Shown: piece by piece, positions 1,354 to 10,118 of the stretch
Layout of the letters: the number at the start of each line of letters is the position of its first letter
How positions within the stretch are numbered: the first letter of the stretch is position 1
Source: Synergistaceae bacterium
Lineage (GTDB): Bacteria; Synergistota; Synergistia; Synergistales; Aminobacteriaceae
Direction of reading: 5' to 3'
Assembly (NCBI GenBank): GCA_017427625.1
Contig: JAFRSL010000129.1
Span: forward strand, 1 to 11,008
DNA: 11,008 nucleotides
The notes under the pieces: generated by a model
The model's database searches: none
The model's input: only the letters and a program-made list of their open reading frames with translations
Told to the model about the DNA's origin: nothing
Made by a program: the position numbers and the translations under genes

Positions 1354-3004
1354 TAACATCAAAGCCGGCGTTGAACGTACCCCTAACGTCAGCCTCTTAT
1401 ACGCACTCGGTCTCACTAAGGAGGAAATCTCAAGACCTATAATCGGAGTCGTAAGTTCATTCAGCGAGGTTGTTCCGGGACATATGCACCTCGACAAGAT
1501 AGCTCAGGCCGTCAAAGAGGGAATTTACGCGGCTGGCGGTACTCCGATGATGTTCCCCGCGATTGCTGTATGTGATGGAATCGCTATGGGCCACGTCGGA
1601 ATGAAATACTCGCTTGTATCGAGAGACCTTGTTGCTGACAGTACAGAGGCTATGGCGATTGCACACCAGTTTGACGGACTTGTATGTATTCCGAACTGCG
1701 ACAAGAATGTTCCCGGCCTCCTAATGGCGGCGGCAAGGCTAAACATTCCTGCAATATTCTGCGCGGGAGGCCCGATGCTTGCGGGTCATCTAAAGGACGG
1801 ACGACGTACCTGTCTTTCGCACATGTTCGAGGCTGTGGGTGCATACCATGCCGGAAAGCTCGACGAAGCAGGAGTCGATGACTACACGGAGAATGCGTGT
1901 CCTTCCTGCGGGTCATGCTCTGGAATGTACACGGCTAACTCTATGAACTGTCTCACCGAAGCAATAGGAATGTCGCTGCGCGGAAACGGTACAATTCCAG
2001 CACCATACTCGGCAAGAATAAGGCTCGCAAAATTGACGGGCATGAAGATCATGGAGCTTGTCAAGAAGAATATACGTCCCCGCGACATCATGACCGCTGA
2101 GGCTTTCAACAACGCTGAGGCTGTCGATATGGCTCTGGGCTGCTCGACGAACACGATGCTCCACCTTCCGGCAATAGCTCACGAAGCAGGCGTAACCATC
2201 GACCTCTCACACGCAAACGAAATCAGCGAGCATACTCCGAATCTCTGCCATCTTGCACCGGCGGGCGATACTTTCATGGAGGACTTGGACAGGGCGGGCG
2301 GTGTCTACGCTGTCATGAATGAGCTTGCCAAGAACGGCCTCATTAAGACAGACCTGATGACTGCAACAGGGAAGACGGTCGCCGAAAACATCGCGGGGAT
2401 TGAAATTCTTGACGATGAGATAATACGTCCAGTGAGCAATCCATACTCCCCAACAGGAGGAATCGCTGTCCTTAAAGGCAACCTTGCACCAGACGGCTGC
2501 GTCGTGAAACGTTCGGCGGTTGCACTTGAGATGATGAAACACGAAGGGCCTGCGAGAGTCTTCGACAGTGAGGACGATGCAATTCAGGCGATTTATGCCC
2601 GCAAGATTAACCCCGGCGATGTCGTTGTCATACGCTATGAAGGGCCAAAGGGCGGGCCAGGAATGCGTGAGATGTTGAACCCAACGAGCGCAATCTGCGG
2701 AATGGGACTCGATACGAGCGTTGCACTGATTACGGACGGTAGATTTTCGGGTGCAACGAGGGGCGCAAGCATCGGCCATGTTTCACCGGAAGCGGCATCA
2801 GGCGGGAATATTGCGCTTGTTCACGAGGGAGACATCATCGCGATCGACATCAACAATTACAGCATAACCCTCAAAGTTTCGGACGAGGAACTTGCCGAAC
2901 GCCGGAAGAATTGGACTCCCAATGAGCCGAAGATTAAGACGGGATACTTGGCACGCTACGCAAAGCTCGTAACGTCAGCGGACAAGGGAGCAATATTAGA
3001 GTAG
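1337..3004 (+). CDS. ilvD: Dihydroxy-acid dehydratase
   Basis: IlvD dehydrates the 2,3-dihydroxy acids made by IlvC to 2-keto acids, the penultimate step to valine and isoleucine, using an Fe-S cluster and Mg. The 555-residue length is normal. Visible motifs are D80 in [11 protein letters not shown]121-D122-K123 (CDK), C194 in [13 protein letters not shown], and S471 in [10 protein letters not shown]. The segment FSEVVPGH (42-49) lacks the cysteine of the NEITPCN motif found in [2Fe-2S] dehydratases. It resembles the E. coli type, so an oxygen-labile [4Fe-4S] cluster is likely and fits an anaerobe. The ATG at 1337 lies inside ilvC; the family start (M-RSD-IK-G) supports it. No good Shine-Dalgarno is adjacent (GGAAGGA lies about 14 bases upstream), so translation is probably coupled to ilvC. 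Confidence 0.97.
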
Positions 3005-3019
3005 AGAGTGAATTTCCGG

Positions 3020-3055
3020 ATACCTTCAGCGAAGAAGCTGGGGGTATTTTTTTTT
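3020..3055 (+). terminator. Intrinsic terminator of ilvCD
   Basis: An 11-bp stem (3020-3030 with 3037-3047, including two G-U pairs) closes a GAAGAA loop and is followed by T8 (3048-3055). It begins 15 bases after the ilvD stop codon. This is a textbook rho-independent terminator. Confidence 0.93.
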
Positions 3056-3075
3056 GCACATTGATAGGGTGGTTT

Positions 3076-3105
3076 CTTGGAGGCTGACGTATTTCAGCCC
3101 CCAAG
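3076..3105 (-). terminator. Hairpin ending the leftward operon
   Basis: A 12-bp stem (3076-3087 with 3094-3105) around a 6-base loop lies just after the stop codon of the leftward hydrolase gene. On the minus-strand RNA every pair forms, one of them G-U; on the plus strand that pair becomes an A-C mismatch, so the structure favours the leftward transcript. There is no T tract after it on the minus strand, so it may protect the 3' end or act with another factor. Confidence 0.55.
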
Positions 3106-3113
3106 TTTTCATG

Positions 3114-4856
3114 TTAACGCTTGAACGGTAATTGAAGGTACGAGTCGTAATTCCCTCCGCAATGTATGACGTGCTTTCCTTTGTTGTTTGGCTTTGCCGG
3201 AGAAGTACCCGGCATCATCGATCCAGCTTCGTCCGTAGCACTCACAACGAGCCTCAACTGTTCGCCGGTATAAATTATCAATCCTGTGGGGTACATCTCG
3301 ATTTCAACGGGGACAATCTCGCCCTCCTTGAGCTTTTCAACGCGGTCAAAGCTGTGATACGGAATCTCCGGCGTTGTCTTCTCATCGTCAAGATGCCTCA
3401 TCGAAACCCTAAGCCTCCCCGTACTTCCCCTATAACGAAGAATACTTCCTCCGCGCTCGGTGAGATCATGATTCCGCGCACAGTGATTCGGTATCACGAA
3501 CTGCTGTAACATGTTCCCGTTCCTGTCGAGCTTGTAGAGGGAAATATAAACGTCCATGTCATCATGGCCCTCTGCCTCAACCCACAGCTTCACTTTAGGA
3601 TAGCCTACAATTTCCGTCCTCTCGTTCGCCGTGTAGAGGAACGATGCAAGAGTTATCACACCCTCAGCGTCATACTTCACCGGAAAATCTGAGCCTCCCT
3701 GTTTATCGTTGAGCGTCCGGGTCATTCCGTCAAGGTACAATTTCTCGTAGGTTACGCCCGCAGGCGGGAACGATTCCGCCGTAATCCCAGTGATATTACC
3801 GCCCTCGAAATCATGAAGCGAGTACCTTACTGTCGGAGTATCCTCCCAGCCGTTATTGATGCCCTTCAGGAAGTGGTCGAAGAATTTTCGCCTGTCCTCG
3901 ATGTGTTCAGCTGTGTAGAAATCCGGCCACTCTTGCCCGTCGTGAATGCGAATCCACTTTTTGCCCTCAGGAATCGCCCTCCATGCCCTGAAAGTCCCCA
4001 TCGTGTGAAGCGTATTGCTGTAGCTTGCGACAACGTAGGCGGGGCAGGTTATGCGTTCGGGGTGAGCAGTCTTGTCGCGCCACAAAGCATTGTCGTAGAG
4101 CGGGTACTTCAATCCTTCGGCGGCAAGGTCCTCCCACTGAACTGGGTCTCCTTCATGTGCCTGCGAAAACTGAATGCGCGCCGCAAATCCTACGTCCGTT
4201 ATTCCTCCGCGACTTATCAAATCCCTGTAGGCATCGCTGAGTCCTTCTTCGGGGTTTATGGCCGCGAGGTGTGGTGGCTGTGCGGAAGCTATGAACCACT
4301 GAGAGAAAGCGAGGTATGATGTTCCGCTCAGTGCGACTTTCCCGTTGCACCAGTCCTGAACCGCGAGCCACTCTATGAGGTCGTAACCGTCCTGCGCTTC
4401 ATGTGAGCCTATTGTGTAGATTGTGCCGCCGGATTTCGTGATGCCGCGTGAGTCTGGGTTGCATACAGCGTAACCGTGAGAGCACCAATATGCGGGGTCG
4501 CTTCCCTCGAACTTCTGAAGGCCGGAGAGCTTGCTGTCTGGGATACCTATCATCGCAAAGAGGCTCTTGTAGCTTGGACGAGTTCCGTTGTCTTTACCGT
4601 ATGGACTCCATGAGATTAGAACGGGGACTTTCTCGTCCGTCTTCGGCCTGAATACGTCAACACAAATTTCAACACCGTCCCTCATCTTCACGCGAACGTC
4701 CTTCTCGACGACAATCTCACATGGAAGCGGCATGAATCCTTCCTCTGATTGCCAGCCTTTGGGGAGGACGGATCTTCCCGACGCTATTTTCTGCGGACAT
4801 TCGGCTTTGTACTGCTTTGACGGTTTGAATATCATCAATTCTTCGAGTTCTGACAT
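3114..4856 (-). CDS. CocE/NonD family hydrolase (S15-like, cytoplasmic)
   Basis: This 580-residue protein has an alpha/beta-hydrolase core followed by a jelly-roll domain from about residue 345, the architecture of the X-Pro dipeptidyl-peptidase/CocE family, whose members cleave esters or amides. The N-terminal strand motif VKMRDGVEICVDVFRP (56-71), the DSRG motif (135-138) and the nucleophile S180 in GTSYLA are visible. Where CocE enzymes usually show the catalytic Asp in a G-W-Y-D context, this protein has ASYSNTLHT (N281). The likely catalytic His is H305 in IHDGQEWPDFY rather than in a G-P-W-x-H motif, so it belongs to a variant subfamily and the acid is unclear. No signal peptide is present. 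AAGGGGG lies eight bases before the ATG. It is the last gene of the leftward run. The substrate cannot be told from sequence. Confidence 0.85.
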   Translation of the reverse strand: MSELEELMIFKPSKQYKAECPQKIASGRSVLPKGWQSEEGFMPLPCEIVVEKDVRVKMRDGVEICVDVFRPKTDEKVPVLISWSPYGKDNGTRPSYKSLFAMIGIPDSKLSGLQKFEGSDPAYWCSHGYAVCNPDSRGITKSGGTIYTIGSHEAQDGYDLIEWLAVQDWCNGKVALSGTSYLAFSQWFIASAQPPHLAAINPEEGLSDAYRDLISRGGITDVGFAARIQFSQAHEGDPVQWEDLAAEGLKYPLYDNALWRDKTAHPERITCPAYVVASYSNTLHTMGTFRAWRAIPEGKKWIRIHDGQEWPDFYTAEHIEDRRKFFDHFLKGINNGWEDTPTVRYSLHDFEGGNITGITAESFPPAGVTYEKLYLDGMTRTLNDKQGGSDFPVKYDAEGVITLASFLYTANERTEIVGYPKVKLWVEAEGHDDMDVYISLYKLDRNGNMLQQFVIPNHCARNHDLTERGGSILRYRGSTGRLRVSMRHLDDEKTTPEIPYHSFDRVEKLKEGEIVPVEIEMYPTGLIIYTGEQLRLVVSATDEAGSMMPGTSPAKPNNKGKHVIHCGGNYDSYLQLPFKR

Positions 4857-5032: not shown

Positions 5033-5806
5033 TTACTTGCTCAGGGCATCTTTTACGGCAATCGTAAGGTCATCAATCCCGATTGTCGCTCCCGAAATCA
5101 GGTCAACATTCTCTGCATGGCCGTCCTTGTCGTACTTCACTGACTCGACTCCGTTCTTCAGCACCCAGCCCTCAAAGTAAGCGACTTGTTCCCACCAGTC
5201 TTTATTGATGGAACTCACGCGCTTGATGCCGTAATTGTCGTACTTCTCTTTGCTGTCCTCACCCTGAAGGCTTATACGGTCAAGGAGTATGCTGGTGATT
5301 TCCCCGTCCTTGAGTATAACGTTGGCGATATAGAGTCCCCATACATTGCTGTATGACGTGCCTGTCTTGACGGTGTAGCCTCCTGACTCTGTGATGCCGT
5401 CAAAAGCATTCCTCACGGCATCTGACAGTTCTGCGACATTGATGGTCGCGCCCGACAGCAAATCGGGATTCAGAGCATGGCCGTTCTTGTCCGTGCTTAC
5501 AGCTTCGAGGCCGTGTTCAACAACCCAGCGTTCATAGTGGGCTACTTGTTCCCACCAGTCTTTTCCGAGTGTGCTGACCGGCTTAATACCGTAATTGTCG
5601 TGAAGCTCCTTGCTGCTCTTTCCGTTGGCAATGCGGTCAATGATGACGTTGGAGACTTTGCCGTCCTTCTCGATCACGTTTGCGATGTACAGCCCCCACT
5701 GCTTGCTGAACGAGAGTCCTGCTTTGACGCTGTAGGAACTGTCTCCAGCAAATGCCGCCGTAACAGCGAATAATGACAGTAATATTGACGCGGTTAATTT
5801 CCTTAT
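5033..5806 (-). CDS. Exported protein with two FMN-binding domains, ATA in place of a start codon
   Basis: From the ATA at 5806 the frame encodes 257 residues. It begins with an excellent signal peptide (RKLTASILLSLFAVTAAFA) and continues into two tandem FMN_bind domains of the NqrC/RnfG type. Each ends in the flavinylation motif D-x-x-S-G-A-T: DLLSGAT (acceptor T121) and DLISGAT (acceptor T241). In this family ApbE links FMN to that Thr outside the cytoplasm, so the product is probably a two-flavin electron carrier in the envelope. There is no ATG, GTG or TTG at the proper start. The good Shine-Dalgarno AAGGAGG sits 10 bases before the ATA. The first in-frame standard start is a GTG at 5677, which would discard the signal peptide and the beginning of domain 1. 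Either ATA is used inefficiently, or the gene is silenced by one base change, or the base is an error. It follows the PPOX gene by two bases. Confidence 0.8.
   Translation of the reverse strand: MRKLTASILLSLFAVTAAFAGDSSYSVKAGLSFSKQWGLYIANVIEKDGKVSNVIIDRIANGKSSKELHDNYGIKPVSTLGKDWWEQVAHYERWVVEHGLEAVSTDKNGHALNPDLLSGATINVAELSDAVRNAFDGITESGGYTVKTGTSYSNVWGLYIANVILKDGEITSILLDRISLQGEDSKEKYDNYGIKRVSSINKDWWEQVAYFEGWVLKNGVESVKYDKDGHAENVDLISGATIGIDDLTIAVKDALSK
5036..5745 (-). repeat. 360-bp tandem duplication inside the FMN-binding gene
   Basis: The two FMN_bind domains are in register at 120 codons. Identity survives at DNA level: the stretch from 5185 (acttgttcccaccagtcttt) recurs at 5545, and the block from 5231 (gtaattgtcg) recurs at 5591, both exactly 360 bases apart. 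Shared protein landmarks are WGLYIANVI, NYGIK, KDWWEQVA and LSGATI/ISGATI. This points to duplication within the gene rather than joining of two distant domains. Confidence 0.8.
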
Positions 5807-5808
5807 TT

Positions 5809-6213
5809 CTAGTTGTCCTCCTTCGTAATGTCTTCAACCTTGTCGCCCGGACTGTGAAGCTCTGCCCTCACGACCTCCATTTTAAACACCGCAAGCAATG
5901 GATTCTCAGAAGTCCCGAACCTCTCAATCTCCATCGGTATACGGCTGAGGTAACGCTCACGTATGCCCTTGTCGTGAATCTCGCTTGCCCTCCCGTAAAT
6001 GCGGATCCACTGGCCTTTACTGAAACCGAGAAGACTGATGTTAGGGTCCTCCATGAGCTGACGGTAAAACGCTTTCTCCGTCCTCGTCCCGAAATACATC
6101 ACGCCGTCCTCCTCAAGTATCCTGCCTATTGGCCTCCCTGAAGGGTAATCGCCGTCAATCGTGAGAAGGTAGTAGAAACCGCATTGTTCCAAGAAATCAT
6201 ATGCCCTGCTCAT
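5809..6213 (-). CDS. Pyridoxamine 5'-phosphate oxidase-like flavoprotein
   Basis: This 134-residue protein has the split-barrel fold of PPOX-like flavin-binding proteins. The opening DFLEQCGFYYLLTIDGDYPS, the R-P-I-G segment, the strand VMYFGTRTEKAFYRQL and the strand KGQWIRIYGRA match small anaerobe PPOX-family proteins that bind FMN or F420-like cofactors in the cytoplasm. The length suits the single-domain subfamily, not true PdxH. I chose the ATG at 6213 over a GTG at 6225: it forms an ATGA overlap with the upstream stop codon, and the GTG lies within the GGAGGTG ribosome binding site. Its final codons carry the ribosome binding site of the next gene. The substrate is unknown; a role as flavin reductase or flavin carrier for its neighbours is inference. 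Confidence 0.85.
   Translation of the reverse strand: MSRAYDFLEQCGFYYLLTIDGDYPSGRPIGRILEEDGVMYFGTRTEKAFYRQLMEDPNISLLGFSKGQWIRIYGRASEIHDKGIRERYLSRIPMEIERFGTSENPLLAVFKMEVVRAELHSPGDKVEDITKEDN
5817..5823 (-). promoter_or_regulatory. Ribosome binding site supporting the ATA start
   Basis: AAGGAGG on the minus strand lies within the last codons (Lys-Glu-Asp) of the PPOX gene, ending 10 bases before the ATA at 5806. It shows where translation of the FMN-binding protein was meant to begin. Confidence 0.6.
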
Positions 6214-7868
6214 TTCGTCAAGCACCTCCGTATTACTTCCAGTACATCAGCGATACCGTCAATGTCCTGTCCATTTGTCCATTTTTCCTGAACGGTATGG
6301 TAATTCGTCGCACTTTCCCAGTAAGAGACCTCATCGTCTGTCATGAGCCTTACGTCCGCGCCGTCAGCCTTGAGAGTCTCAATCTGCTTGTTGAACGACT
6401 CGCTCATCACCTTGCCGAGCTGTGAATACGAACTCTCCGCAGCCCTAGCGAAAGCCTCCTTGTCCTCATCACTCAAGCTCTCCCAGACTGTTTTGTTCAC
6501 CGCTATGATGTACTCATGGCCGAGCCACAATTTTGGTGATGTCAGTATGTGGGGAGCTGGTTTGTGCGCGCTTATGTCATAACCGCTGTCGATGTTCACG
6601 ATCAGGCCGTCAAGCCTCCCGTCATTGAGTGCCTCAGAAACTCCCGGCCCCCATGGCATCGTTACGGGTTCAGCCCCTGCGTTCGCTAGGAAATCCTTGT
6701 GCCAGAAACTCGCGCTCCTCCATCTCTGACCCTTGATGTCCTTGATGTCAGCCAACGTTTTTGCGCTGAAGAATCCGGCGGGGTATCCTGTCGCTATGAA
6801 AGCTGCGTGAATGCCGCAAGCCTCAAGCTCCTTTGCGAGTGCCGGGACTTCATCGTAGACCCTGCGGAAGAACTCGACCTGTTCCTGACCTGACGGGCCT
6901 ACAGGGAAACTCTTGAAGAGCTGGTGAAGCATCAAATCCTTCATGCAGTATTCGGGGACGACAACGGCCATGTCCGCGATTCCTGCCCGCAATGTCTTCA
7001 ACGCATCGTAGCCCGTTGAGATTTTCGCGTTCCAATGGGGAGTGATCTTCACCCGGCCATGTGATTCTCTTTCGACCGCCGTGAAGAATACATCGTTGAG
7101 GAATCGTGTCCGCATGTTACCCAGAGGCTCATGGTCTGAATACGTCAGCTTCACCGCGATGAAGTCATCAATAAGCGCGCAGACCTCCCTCAATCCTTCC
7201 TCCTTCATGAACGCAACATGTTCGGCGTTTGGTATGACGTGAAATCTTGCGTCGGGTAGAGCGTCGGCAACCTTCTTCCCTTCGGGGACTGGATTGGTCT
7301 TGTCGTTCTCGCCGGTAATGACAAGCGCGGGAATCGTTACCTTCTTGATGTCCGCCATGAGGTCAAAATCTATCAGCGACCCGATTATTGCGGCATCGTT
7401 CTTGTCTTTGGCCTCTGAAATTCTTTCGGGCGGGTAGGTGTCTCCTTGCCCTCTCGTGCCAATCAACACGATTTTCGAGAACAGTTCGGGGTATTTCTCG
7501 GCAGCTTTTAGTGTGATGTAGCTCCCCATCGAGAAGCCTATCACTATGGGCTTTCTCAGGCCGCAAGACGCAACCAGCCCCGCCAAATCGTCAGCGTTGT
7601 CCTCAAGCGTGAATGCTTCGGGCTTGTCAGTCTTCCCATGACCGCGAGAGTCGTAGCTGTAGACGTGATATTTCCCCTTGTAGTAGTCGAATAGGCTCGA
7701 CATGTATTCTTTTGAGTAGCCTTTGCCGTGAAGTAGAATTACCGCCGGTCCTTCCCCTGCCTCCATGACCGATATGTTTATGCCGTTGACGTTCCTCAAC
7801 CCCTCGCTGTCTGCAAACGCACAGCCTGCAATGAGTGCGAATATCAATGTGAGTGAAAGTACCTTCAT
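6210..7868 (-). CDS. Secreted alpha/beta-hydrolase fused to a TRAP solute-binding (DctP) domain
   Basis: The 552-residue product starts at ATG 7868, seven bases after GGAGG. Residues 1-19 form a signal peptide; I-A-G-C (13-16) is also a fair lipobox, so it may be a lipoprotein. Residues about 22-237 are a complete alpha/beta-hydrolase: oxyanion motif LLHGKG (45-50), DSRGHG (73-78), nucleophile S113 in GFSMGS, acid D189 in TGEND and H217 in NAEHVAF. Residues about 239-545 are a full-length DctP-type domain: first strand VKLTYSDHEP, then GRVKITPHWN, LRAGIADMAVV and R384 in the position of the carboxylate-binding Arg, then LANAGAEPVTMPW and ALNDGRLDG. The domains join with essentially no linker. 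SBPs of this type normally stand alone and deliver organic acids to DctQM, absent here. The enzyme may release an acid that the binding domain catches; this is inference. An upstream in-frame ATG at 8012 lies inside the preceding gene and is unlikely. Confidence 0.88.
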   Translation of the reverse strand: MKVLSLTLIFALIAGCAFADSEGLRNVNGINISVMEAGEGPAVILLHGKGYSKEYMSSLFDYYKGKYHVYSYDSRGHGKTDKPEAFTLEDNADDLAGLVASCGLRKPIVIGFSMGSYITLKAAEKYPELFSKIVLIGTRGQGDTYPPERISEAKDKNDAAIIGSLIDFDLMADIKKVTIPALVITGENDKTNPVPEGKKVADALPDARFHVIPNAEHVAFMKEEGLREVCALIDDFIAVKLTYSDHEPLGNMRTRFLNDVFFTAVERESHGRVKITPHWNAKISTGYDALKTLRAGIADMAVVVPEYCMKDLMLHQLFKSFPVGPSGQEQVEFFRRVYDEVPALAKELEACGIHAAFIATGYPAGFFSAKTLADIKDIKGQRWRSASFWHKDFLANAGAEPVTMPWGPGVSEALNDGRLDGLIVNIDSGYDISAHKPAPHILTSPKLWLGHEYIIAVNKTVWESLSDEDKEAFARAAESSYSQLGKVMSESFNKQIETLKADGADVRLMTDDEVSYWESATNYHTVQEKWTNGQDIDGIADVLEVIRRCLTK

Positions 7869-7932: not shown

Positions 7933-8577
7933 TTACGGCTTAGGCCCGACGCACTGCATGAGCGTGAAGTTGTGCTTTTCCGTGAGGCCGAGAAGTTCCG
8001 TGAGCTTTTCACGGTCGAAATTCATTCTCGTCCTTGCACCCCAGCCCTTTGAAGCTGCGAATAAGTAGACGTTCTGCATCGACAGTCCAGCGTGTGCGAA
8101 TCCGCAGTTCAGAATATCGCTCGCAGGAATTGGGCGACCCTTCGGCCATTTCTCCGTGTCCTGAATGTAGAGGAGATCGACCGCTGCCTTTGCGACAAAC
8201 GGCTGCCCTCCCGTCAACACACGATAATCCCCGTCCGCAACCTTCGTGATGCTGTGCCCGTCAGGATTGTACCTGAATACTCCCGACTTTGTGAACGCGA
8301 ATATCACCATGTCTTGAGTGTTCATCGCTGTGGCGAAGGTGAGTTTGCCGTTGTCCCTGTTGATTCCGCCCGCCGCCCAGAGAAGGTTTGACATCTCCTG
8401 AAGCGTTAGCTCCGTGTCGACGAAATCACCCGCGCTCTGACGCTGTGCAATGGCCTCGATCACGGGAATTCCGCCGGACTTTTCGGGGTCAGGTAGCTTC
8501 ACCGTTTCCCCTTCCGCCGCGAACGCTGACGAACTCACCAGCGCGACGAACAACAATACTGCAAATACTTTCTTCAT
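7933..8577 (-). CDS. Exported nitroreductase-family (SagB/ThcOx-like) protein
   Basis: A 214-residue protein with a clear signal peptide (MKKVFAVLLFVALVSSSAFA, cleavage after residue 20). The mature part opens with LPDPEKSGGIPVIEAIAQRQ and LTLQEMSNLLWAAGGINR (58-74), the pattern of nitroreductase-fold dehydrogenases of the SagB/ThcOx kind, which use FMN. MNTQD (85-89) corresponds to the FMN-contacting N-T-Q segment, and HAGLSMQNVYLFAASKGWG (162-180) to the conserved A-G-x-x-x-Q-N helix. The usual R-R-S-x-R-x-F motif reads RQSAGDF (46-52), so one or two phosphate-contacting Arg residues are lost and FMN binding may be altered. GGAGG precedes the ATG. It is the first gene of the leftward run, and its signal peptide suggests an extracytoplasmic redox role with the FMN-binding protein further down. 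The substrate is unknown. Confidence 0.82.
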   Translation of the reverse strand: MKKVFAVLLFVALVSSSAFAAEGETVKLPDPEKSGGIPVIEAIAQRQSAGDFVDTELTLQEMSNLLWAAGGINRDNGKLTFATAMNTQDMVIFAFTKSGVFRYNPDGHSITKVADGDYRVLTGGQPFVAKAAVDLLYIQDTEKWPKGRPIPASDILNCGFAHAGLSMQNVYLFAASKGWGARTRMNFDREKLTELLGLTEKHNFTLMQCVGPKP

Positions 8578-8732: not shown

Positions 8733-9680
8733 TTACCTGTAAATTGGCTTTCCGTCCGAAAAAACAAGACTCCTCATCTCGTTACCATAAACCTTATGTT
8801 CCGCCGCCGTTGCCTCAATCTCCTTCATGTCCGCGTCAGTAAGCTCAATTCCGAGAGCGTCAATGTTGTCCTTGAGATGTTCGGGACTCGTAGTACCTGC
8901 GAGGCACATTGCGTTAGGCAGCTTCGTCAACGCCCATGCTGTCATAAGCTGGCTGAGTGATACTCCCTTCCGTTCAGCGATGGACTTCAAAGCCCTCACA
9001 AGCGGGAGATTCTTCGGGAGGTTCTCAGGCGACAATGCGGGCGAAACCATTGCGCTCGATGCCTTGCCCTCAAGAGTCCTGTCGTTCAGCAATCCATGAC
9101 CCTGCACCCCGAAAACGAGTACCTTTATTCCCAGCTCTTCAGCTGTCGGAATAATGCTAGTCTCAATGCTCCTGTCGATCAGCGAGTATTCCATCTCGAC
9201 CGTGTGAATTGGGTGGACTTTGTGGGCGCGCCTCAGTGTCTCAGCGTCAATCTCCGTCATTCCTATATTGCGGATATAACCTGCCTTCTTCAGTTCCGAA
9301 AGCTCGCCGATAATATCCTCAACCGGGATTTTCGCGTCCATTCTTGAGGGCTGATACAAGTCAACATAATCAAGTCCCAAACGACGGAGCGAGTATGTGA
9401 GTTGCGCCTTAATGTGGAACGGGCTGACATCGAGGCCGTAAATCCTACCGTCTGGCGCAAAAAGCACCCCGAATTTCACGGAGATAAAATACTTCTCTCT
9501 CGGTATTCCCTGAAGCGCACGACCCAAAAGCATCTCGCTTTCCCCGCACTGGTAGAAGTTCCCAGTGTTGAGGAAGGTTATACCCGCGTCAATGGCAGCA
9601 TGTACCGTCGCAATCGAGCGTTCAGGGTTTCGCCTGAGCGACATTCCCATACAGCCCAGCCCTAACCTGTCAATCTTCAT
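8733..9680 (-). CDS. Aldo/keto reductase-family protein with altered catalytic residues
   Basis: A 315-residue TIM-barrel protein of the aldo/keto reductase family, whose members reduce carbonyls with NADPH. The pattern from RLGLGCMGMS through ESEMLLGRAL, FISVKFG, LRRLGLDYVDLY and IRNIGMTEIDAETLRRAHKV fits the YajO/AKR13-like branch. The family tetrad is Asp-Tyr-Lys-His. Here Tyr (Y43) and Lys (K69) are kept, but the Asp position is N38 (LNTGNFY) and the His position is S112 (DLYQPSR). Some relatives also lack the His, but the Asp-to-Asn change is additional, so activity may be weak or different. GGAGGAA lies upstream of the ATG within the end of the MarR gene, whose stop codon is three bases before this start. 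The two genes form an operon and the MarR protein is its likely regulator. Confidence 0.9.
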   Translation of the reverse strand: MKIDRLGLGCMGMSLRRNPERSIATVHAAIDAGITFLNTGNFYQCGESEMLLGRALQGIPREKYFISVKFGVLFAPDGRIYGLDVSPFHIKAQLTYSLRRLGLDYVDLYQPSRMDAKIPVEDIIGELSELKKAGYIRNIGMTEIDAETLRRAHKVHPIHTVEMEYSLIDRSIETSIIPTAEELGIKVLVFGVQGHGLLNDRTLEGKASSAMVSPALSPENLPKNLPLVRALKSIAERKGVSLSQLMTAWALTKLPNAMCLAGTTSPEHLKDNIDALGIELTDADMKEIEATAAEHKVYGNEMRSLVFSDGKPIYR

Positions 9681-9683
9681 CTA

Positions 9684-10118
9684 TTATTCCTCCTTTTTCC
9701 GAAGCAGCTTGTTCAAAAGCCGCATTAGTTCCTTCTTCTCGTCAGCATCAAGAACTCCCGTCAGCCTATTTTCAAGCTCATCACCGAGACCGCAGAGAGT
9801 ATCCTTCATGTCGATGGCCTTCTTTGTTGGACAGAGGATTTTGCTCCTGCTGTCGTCGGGATTAACCCTGCGCTCAATCATTCCTTTCTGTTCGAGCTTC
9901 TGGACAAGCCCCGTTACAGTCGGGTTGGTCATCGAGAAGTAATGCTCAATATCGGCCTGCCTTATGTTCTTCTCTGGGTTCATGAGAACGTACTTCAGTA
10001 TCTTGAACTGAGAATGCGTGAGGTCGTAAGGCTCAAGAATAGGATTAGAGAGCTTGTCGATCTCAAGGCTCAACTTCTTGATGAGTATTGCGATTTTGTC
10101 AGAGTGATTAGTCATCAT
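9684..10118 (-). CDS. MarR-family transcriptional regulator
   Basis: This 144-residue protein shows the MarR winged helix-turn-helix. Helix 2 is LTHSQFKILKYVLMNPE, the recognition region is QADIEHYFSMTNPTVTGLVQKLEQKG, and the wing contains RRVNPDDSRSKIL with the family D-x-R-S signature. Flanking helices at both ends form the dimer interface, and the length is typical. MarR proteins usually repress their own operon and respond to small phenolic or oxidising ligands. Two adjacent ATG codons are possible (10118 and 10115). Neither has a good ribosome binding site, and the first overlaps the stop codon of the 36-codon ORF upstream, so translation is probably coupled to it. Targets are inferred to be this operon and perhaps the 8577-3114 run. 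Confidence 0.92.
   Translation of the reverse strand: MMTNHSDKIAILIKKLSLEIDKLSNPILEPYDLTHSQFKILKYVLMNPEKNIRQADIEHYFSMTNPTVTGLVQKLEQKGMIERRVNPDDSRSKILCPTKKAIDMKDTLCGLGDELENRLTGVLDADEKKELMRLLNKLLRKKEE

Follow-up and report, generated by a model that had tools for sequence, protein, structure and literature searches.

Binding proteins of TRAP transporters are usually regarded as stand-alone proteins that serve a permease. According to the available part of PMC12344293, the binding proteins of the DctP and TAXI types invariably consist of only two alpha/beta domains and a hinge, and the same source itself reports an elongated TAXI protein. The main text of PMC8238504, on FMN_bind proteins flavinylated by ApbE, mentions none of DctP, solute-binding, Synergist, multi-domain or hydrolase. 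In our own literature search, the families PF03480 and PF04205 were not found together in any paper, and DctP, hydrolase, TRAP transporter and domain fusion were not found jointly.

Here we analyse 11,008 nucleotides of Synergistaceae DNA (the window), in which a single gene joins an alpha/beta-hydrolase to a DctP-type solute-binding domain. This hydrolase-DctP architecture is real, recurrent and undescribed in the literature searched. The best reading of the fusion, to which we give a probability of roughly 0.4, is that the DctP half holds the product or the substrate of the hydrolase half.

Domain structure and constraint of the fusion gene

The genes of the minus strand run in the order MarR, aldo/keto reductase, nitroreductase, fusion, PNPOx, FMN_bind and CocE-like hydrolase, and the features are as follows.

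9684..10118, minus strand: MarR-family regulator, upstream in the gene run (Pfam; conserved neighbour)
8733..9680, minus strand: aldo/keto reductase (Pfam; conserved neighbour)
7933..8577, minus strand: nitroreductase (Pfam; signal peptide by eye; conserved neighbour)
6210..7868, minus strand: hydrolase-DctP fusion gene, 552 residues, ATG at 7868 and TGA at 6210-6212, with homologues P0003-P0008 of like architecture
7812..7868, minus strand: signal peptide MKVLSLTLIFALIAGCAFA (by eye), with a lipobox-like IAGC (C16)
7158..7808, minus strand: alpha/beta-hydrolase half, residues 21-237, with S113 (7530-7532), D189 (7302-7304) and H217 (7218-7220)
7155..7157, minus strand: junction residue 238, between the last helix of the hydrolase (223-237) and the first strand of DctP (239-244) in the predicted model
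6213..7154, minus strand: DctP-type solute-binding half, residues 239-552, with R384 at 6717-6719
5809..6213, minus strand: PNPOx-like gene (Pfam PNPOx_N), whose ATG (6213-6211) overlaps the TGA of the fusion as ATGA
5033..5806, minus strand: two-module FMN_bind gene with SGAT motifs (Pfam), ATA at the expected start
3114..4856, minus strand: CocE/NonD (S15-PepX_C) hydrolase (Pfam and curated profile models)

A GGAGG sequence lies seven bases upstream of the ATG at 7868, and the ATGA overlap at the other end of the gene suggests that the fusion and the PNPOx-like gene are probably translationally coupled. At the FMN_bind gene, ATA (5804-5806, minus strand) replaces the ATG start of the homologues, and is possibly a rare start codon or a mark of early decay. 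The enzyme for flavinylation, ApbE, is encoded in the window's own genome. The signal peptide of the window protein carries IAGC, where P0003 has VAGC and P0004 and P0005 have AGS; judged by eye from this lipobox-like motif and its C16, the window protein may be a lipoprotein instead of a free secreted protein.

The hydrolase half is recognized by Pfam Abhydrolase_1 (84.9 bits, cut-off 25.8) and Abhydrolase_6 (58.7 bits, cut-off 26.3), and the other half by DctP (PF03480) over residues 261-522 (63.0 bits, cut-off 23.4). The DctP half has the fold of a solute-binding protein; it reaches the NCBIfam model TRAP_S1 (53.4 versus 50 bits) and misses the stricter dctP model TIGR00787 (28.6 versus 175.05). 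The original prediction had placed a catalytic triad at S113, D189 and H217, and all three residues are found at these positions: the nucleophile elbow GFSMG (GxSxG) together with D189 and H217, completing the Ser-Asp-His triad, recurs in each of the 19 hydrolase rows that were compared. The conserved arginine that had been expected in the DctP half is R384, which aligns with the arginine of the 'KMR' motif in the solved DctP proteins 7nrr and 7nsw and is invariant in the DctP alignment (16 of 16 rows). We take R384 to be the equivalent of SiaP Arg-147. The latter residue is covered in the available part of PMC4646407.

The solo hydrolases of relatives (n = 3) terminate 4-5 residues past the end of the helix at which the fusion joins, and the DctP half begins at the mature N-terminus, so that both halves of the fusion are essentially complete. 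This bears out the two complete halves that had been proposed. The join was also thought to have almost no linker, and the predicted structure (pTM 0.84, pLDDT 87) has none, with the single residue 238 placed between the halves.

Both halves are under purifying selection. In the comparison of the window with the related genome G021, from another species, dN/dS comes to 0.109 over the 207 codons of the hydrolase half and to 0.116 over the 313 codons of the DctP half, values that are approximate at the fusion dS of 1.3-1.5. Both fall inside the range of 0.04-0.17 spanned by six neighbours in the same comparison, i.e., aldo/keto reductase (0.043), S15 (0.075), PNPOx (0.103), MarR (0.131), nitroreductase (0.149) and FMN_bind (0.168). 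The broken copies of the fusion in G004 and G031 have a dN/dS of 0.105-0.125, which points to breaks that are recent, or else to errors of assembly.

These values bear on the possibility that the fusion is a by-product of locus decay, i.e., that deletions in a degrading operon left an open frame behind and that the fused protein has no selected function. Several genes of the locus are indeed interrupted in G004, G021, G023 and G031, the FMN_bind gene of the window lacks a standard start codon, and the DctP subfamily occurs in only 16 of 43 genomes of the genus, some of them incomplete. However, the dN/dS of each half, about 0.11 at a dS of about 1.3-1.5, largely refutes this explanation, and the ATGA overlap with the next gene and the two or more origins described below count against it as well, so we consider it improbable. 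The fusion gives the impression of an accessory device: every copy measured was under constraint until recently, and some are broken.

Recurrence and origin of the join

In a homologue search with the fusion protein, 7999 candidates were scored and 376 passed. Among the best 120 of these 376, P0002 is the window's own protein cluster (99%), and six further clusters (P0003-P0008) share the fusion architecture, with an identity to the query of 61-83% and 96-100% of its length covered; P0028 has the join, with its DctP half broken. The hydrolase cap (about window residues 147-174) is naturally lost in P0006 and P0007, which keep the catalytic triad. At the level of whole genomes, G021 has an open copy of the fusion without the cap region, the copy in G004 has a single frame break, which lies in its DctP half and may be due to assembly, and the copy in G031 is broken at several places. 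Whether the fusion recurs across species, a question posed with the original prediction, is thus answered in the affirmative by P0003-P0008 and by these three genomes. The draft metagenome-assembled genome behind the window consists of 304 contigs, of which the window is one, and a misassembly at about 7160 had been raised as a possible source of the join. The same join is found in independent assemblies, in the six other clusters (one of them on a contig of 106,787 bases) as well as in G021, G004 and G031, and this excludes an artefact for practical purposes.

The fusion appears to have arisen more than once. In a tree of 69 DctP domains (P0001-P0070 minus the partial P0028, from 121 proteins), the hydrolase-DctP label requires three changes, at least two of which are forced by well-supported branches, and all architectures together require 21 changes against a minimum of 8. 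A single clade of all eight hydrolase-DctP rows, a group defined by architecture, is rejected by the AU test (p-AU 4e-67), perhaps in part because the stand-alone P0011 sits within the main fused clade. The DctP tree sets P0008 apart, and the hydrolase half of this protein likewise falls outside the main fused clade (81/81 clade support, base unresolved). Most simply, the sequences point to at least two origins of the fusion, and recombination of one half may be an alternative source of the placement of P0008. The recent in-frame deletion between two former neighbours that had been offered as a rival to a functional fusion finds no support as a single event, given that the fusion extends down to 61% identity and has, most simply, at least two origins.

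It is likely that the fusion formed by the joining of neighbours in a shuffled operon. At the same spot after the nitroreductase gene, the hydrolase stands alone in G014 and G035 and the DctP gene stands alone in G034; G015 has a hydrolase-amidohydrolase fusion at this spot, and in G027 a hydrolase gene lies 3 nt ahead of an FMN_bind-FMN_bind-DctP gene. The separate genes in close relatives that had been held up against the fusion are therefore found, along with other arrangements, in these five genomes, whereas G021 (open) and G004 and G031 (both broken) have the fusion itself at this position. Loss of the middle modules from a G027-like arrangement would yield a hydrolase-DctP fusion. Adjacent hydrolase and stand-alone DctP genes were not seen among 20 neighbourhoods. 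As for a mobile cassette with fixed DNA ends, inspection by eye of the genus loci revealed no shared flank around the joins beyond coding homology.

An orphan DctP domain with shuffled partners

Among 66 loci from named genomes (up to 8 kb on each side, contig permitting), dctM is absent near this DctP in 65; in the remaining locus, L067, DctM accompanies another gene resembling a solute-binding protein, on the opposite strand. None of the 17 loci of the genus shares a contig with any DctM among those listed of the 181 PF06808 matches in 16 genomes, and tblastn of 19 DctM proteins against 87 stretches gave none in the stretches of the genus loci. For 12 further genomes, also searched with PF06808, proximity of DctM to the locus was judged from gene neighbourhoods and tblastn; the search for dctQ used two queries only. 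The window's own genome has 12 DctM matches elsewhere. By its gene neighbourhood, the DctP half of the window protein is an orphan solute-binding domain without a TRAP permease gene of its own nearby: it belongs to the DctP fold family, and its gene does not adjoin dctQ or dctM as a member of a TRAP operon would. A position near dctQM, suggested as a check on the fusion, is not what we find, and uptake through a neighbouring TRAP permease is unsupported, since dctM is missing beside the window gene and from nearly all related loci.

At a threshold of E 1e-40, the 16 genomes of the genus that carry the DctP subfamily (of 43, some incomplete) contribute 17 loci. Four of these are hydrolase-DctP genes (two with an open frame), and one in G023 has a hydrolase-type leader followed by DctP, with an internal stop. 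Three loci are FMN_bind-COesterase-DctP (one decayed), three are FMN_bind-FMN_bind-DctP (in G015 with the two parts in different frames), two are MBL-Cu_amine_oxidN1-DctP, and four are stand-alone DctP genes. As read from these sequences, the DctP subfamily in one ruminant-gut genus of Synergistaceae is repeatedly fused in frame to varied secreted modules, which include hydrolases of two folds (alpha/beta-hydrolase and COesterase on one side, metallo-beta-lactamase on the other) as well as FMN_bind. Wherever DctP is C-terminal, the join lies at its mature N-terminus, in the YSDHEPLG region; P0045 has the reverse order, DctP followed by FMN_bind. The partner is cut short or gone, and DctP retained, in P0025 (apparently a hydrolase leader only, by eye), P0031 (an FMN_bind stub), P0053 (an MBL stub) and G023.

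The hydrolase subfamily is shuffled in a similar manner. It is fused to Amidohydro_2 in G015, to SDR in P0122 (where a signal peptide is not evident), to SnoaL in P0124-P0126 (in P0125 by sequence likeness only, missed by Pfam) and to a GDSL lipase in P0127 and P0128 (37% identity). Amidohydro_2, SDR and SnoaL are also separate neighbour genes in the loci of relatives, and are absent from the window.

We note several further arrangements. In P0026, the partner joined at this same point of the DctP module is a membrane Cache sensor in truncated form. In the G015 locus (L043), positions 225-1940 encode a hydrolase with a signal peptide and an Amidohydro_2 domain (571 residues), and within 2070-3660 the FMN_bind-FMN_bind part and DctP are out of frame at a run of nine A, a change that may stem from slippage, from decay or from the assembly. 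A lone DctP gene in G032 (L041, 7292-8302) lies between two genes of the same family, hflK/hflC-like by eye, and two hflK/hflC-like genes (by eye) flank the whole locus of G027 (L038). Another lone DctP gene, in G002 (L036, 374-1438), sits within a run of genes that by eye resemble dapA, dapB and dapD, with a spacing of 2 nt upstream and an overlap of 4 nt downstream. A contig binned as Treponema (L064) apparently carries the same decayed FMN_bind-COesterase-DctP gene as the Synergistaceae genome G032 (L042), which is perhaps a case of mis-binning.

Outside the Synergistaceae, the orphan DctP subfamily is found mostly in Proteobacteria, where it often sits next to genes that by eye resemble TetR, LysR-SnoaL, OmpR-type or two-component regulators or TonB receptors; a function for the subfamily was not found in the literature searched. 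As a control, 51 such loci (L065-L118 minus L102, L106 and L110; 5 to 17 kb each) were searched for the partner modules at E 1e-15. None contains the hydrolase, FMN_bind, MBL, COesterase, nitroreductase, PNPOx, amidohydrolase or SDR, and the sole matches are one aldo/keto reductase (L088) and one S9 peptidase (L101). It follows that DctP had a role without these partners, and that its link to enzymes belongs to the ruminant genus.

The control moves support somewhat away from a holding function and toward hitch-hiking for export and expression, in which DctP works independently, the joins are kept for a signal peptide and a place in the MarR-linked operon, and the function of the hydrolase is unrelated. 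Such hitch-hiking would also fit the N-terminal joins, whose DctP side is always the mature N-terminus, and the partners, which are of many kinds and often truncated (the P0025 leader, by eye, and the stubs in P0031, P0053 and P0026), as well as the existence of solo DctP genes with their own leader. Yet the hydrolase half is constrained as strongly as the DctP half; hydrolases and flavin modules, which the locus also contains as separate genes, make up many of the partners; and members of the hydrolase subfamily are in turn fused to further domains encoded there. We regard hitch-hiking as the main rival, serious but tentative and short of even odds.

Proposed role and comparison with known systems

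If, as we prefer, the DctP half holds the product or substrate of the hydrolase, the fusion gene would encode a single protein of two domains that is exported and possibly anchored to lipid. Its alpha/beta-hydrolase half would most likely hydrolyse a compound of the ester or lactone type, and its DctP half would most likely close on the released carboxylate, or on the substrate. The ligand would thereby be kept outside the cytoplasm for other exported enzymes of the MarR-containing locus, such as the nitroreductase and the FMN_bind protein. The substrate, the ligand, the hand-over of product and the extracytoplasmic location are what we infer for this protein. The likeliest class of ligand is an aromatic or hydroxycinnamate-like acid: among the 50 structures listed in a fold comparison, TarP (with coumarate and cinnamate) is one of the solved DctP relatives (13-23% identity), as are further binders of aromatic acids and binders of ectoine, pyroglutamate and sialate, and the best fold match among those listed is an isethionate binder.

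In favour of a holding function we count the recurrence of the fusion with, most simply, two or more origins, the constraint on both halves, the triad conserved in every hydrolase row compared, the several hydrolase partners, the linkerless model, the TarP-like solved relatives and the presence of ApbE in the genome. On the other side stand the low identity to the solved relatives among those listed, which include non-aromatic binders, the truncation or loss of partners with DctP kept, the loss of the cap in P0006 and P0007, the breaks in G004 and G031, and the lack of partner modules in all 51 loci outside the Synergistaceae. The cleave-and-capture device of the original prediction remains plausible as cleavage and holding without uptake, whereas its uptake step through a TRAP permease finds no support with dctM not nearby.

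Here the DctP fold serves as a module of secreted enzymes, and the loci of the genus and nearly all related loci gave no permease gene next to it. Should the domain hold what its enzyme produces, nature would have arrived at an enzyme-plus-binder design, and a very large protein family would have gained a new role. The recurrent fusions tie the genes of a rumen locus (MarR, aldo/keto reductase, nitroreductase, PNPOx, FMN_bind, amidohydrolase and esterases) into one testable pathway. A wider generalization, which we consider rather unlikely at present, is that the permease-free DctP subfamily has turned into a shuffled module that holds substrate or product for secreted enzymes. Joined in frame, in this one genus, to esterases, a metallo-hydrolase and flavin carriers, with FMN_bind-carboxylesterase-DctP as the longest chain, it would form single-chain extracytoplasmic devices for the cleavage, holding and reduction of aromatic acids, and would play no part in transport.

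The hydrolase half resembles the 3-oxoadipate enol-lactonase, esterase and BpoC hydrolases in its GFSMG nucleophile elbow and triad, and the models of bifunctional PcaDC and PcaCD provide a precedent for the fusion of such hydrolases to a pathway partner. Unlike these enzymes, the hydrolase of the fusion is predicted to be exported and its cap is short or absent; against every hydrolase model among the 25 curated models listed, it scores far below cut-off, so that an exact substrate is not assigned. The extracytosolic FMN_bind proteins flavinylated by ApbE are represented by a neighbour gene and by a frequent alternative partner of DctP, whereas the hydrolase-DctP fusion itself has no FMN_bind domain. 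Compared with the DctP-type binding proteins of TRAP transporters, such as TarP, the DctP half of the window protein has no dctM nearby, is fused to an enzyme, and is 13-23% identical to the solved proteins among those listed. In having a solute-binding protein parted from its usual permease and sometimes fused anew, the locus is akin to the TAXI-GltS fusions and the orphan Bug proteins, as presented in the available parts of PMC12344293 and PMC5812351, respectively. The partner in the TAXI-GltS fusions, from the same part of PMC12344293, is a membrane transporter, whereas the partner here would be a soluble exported enzyme or a flavin module.
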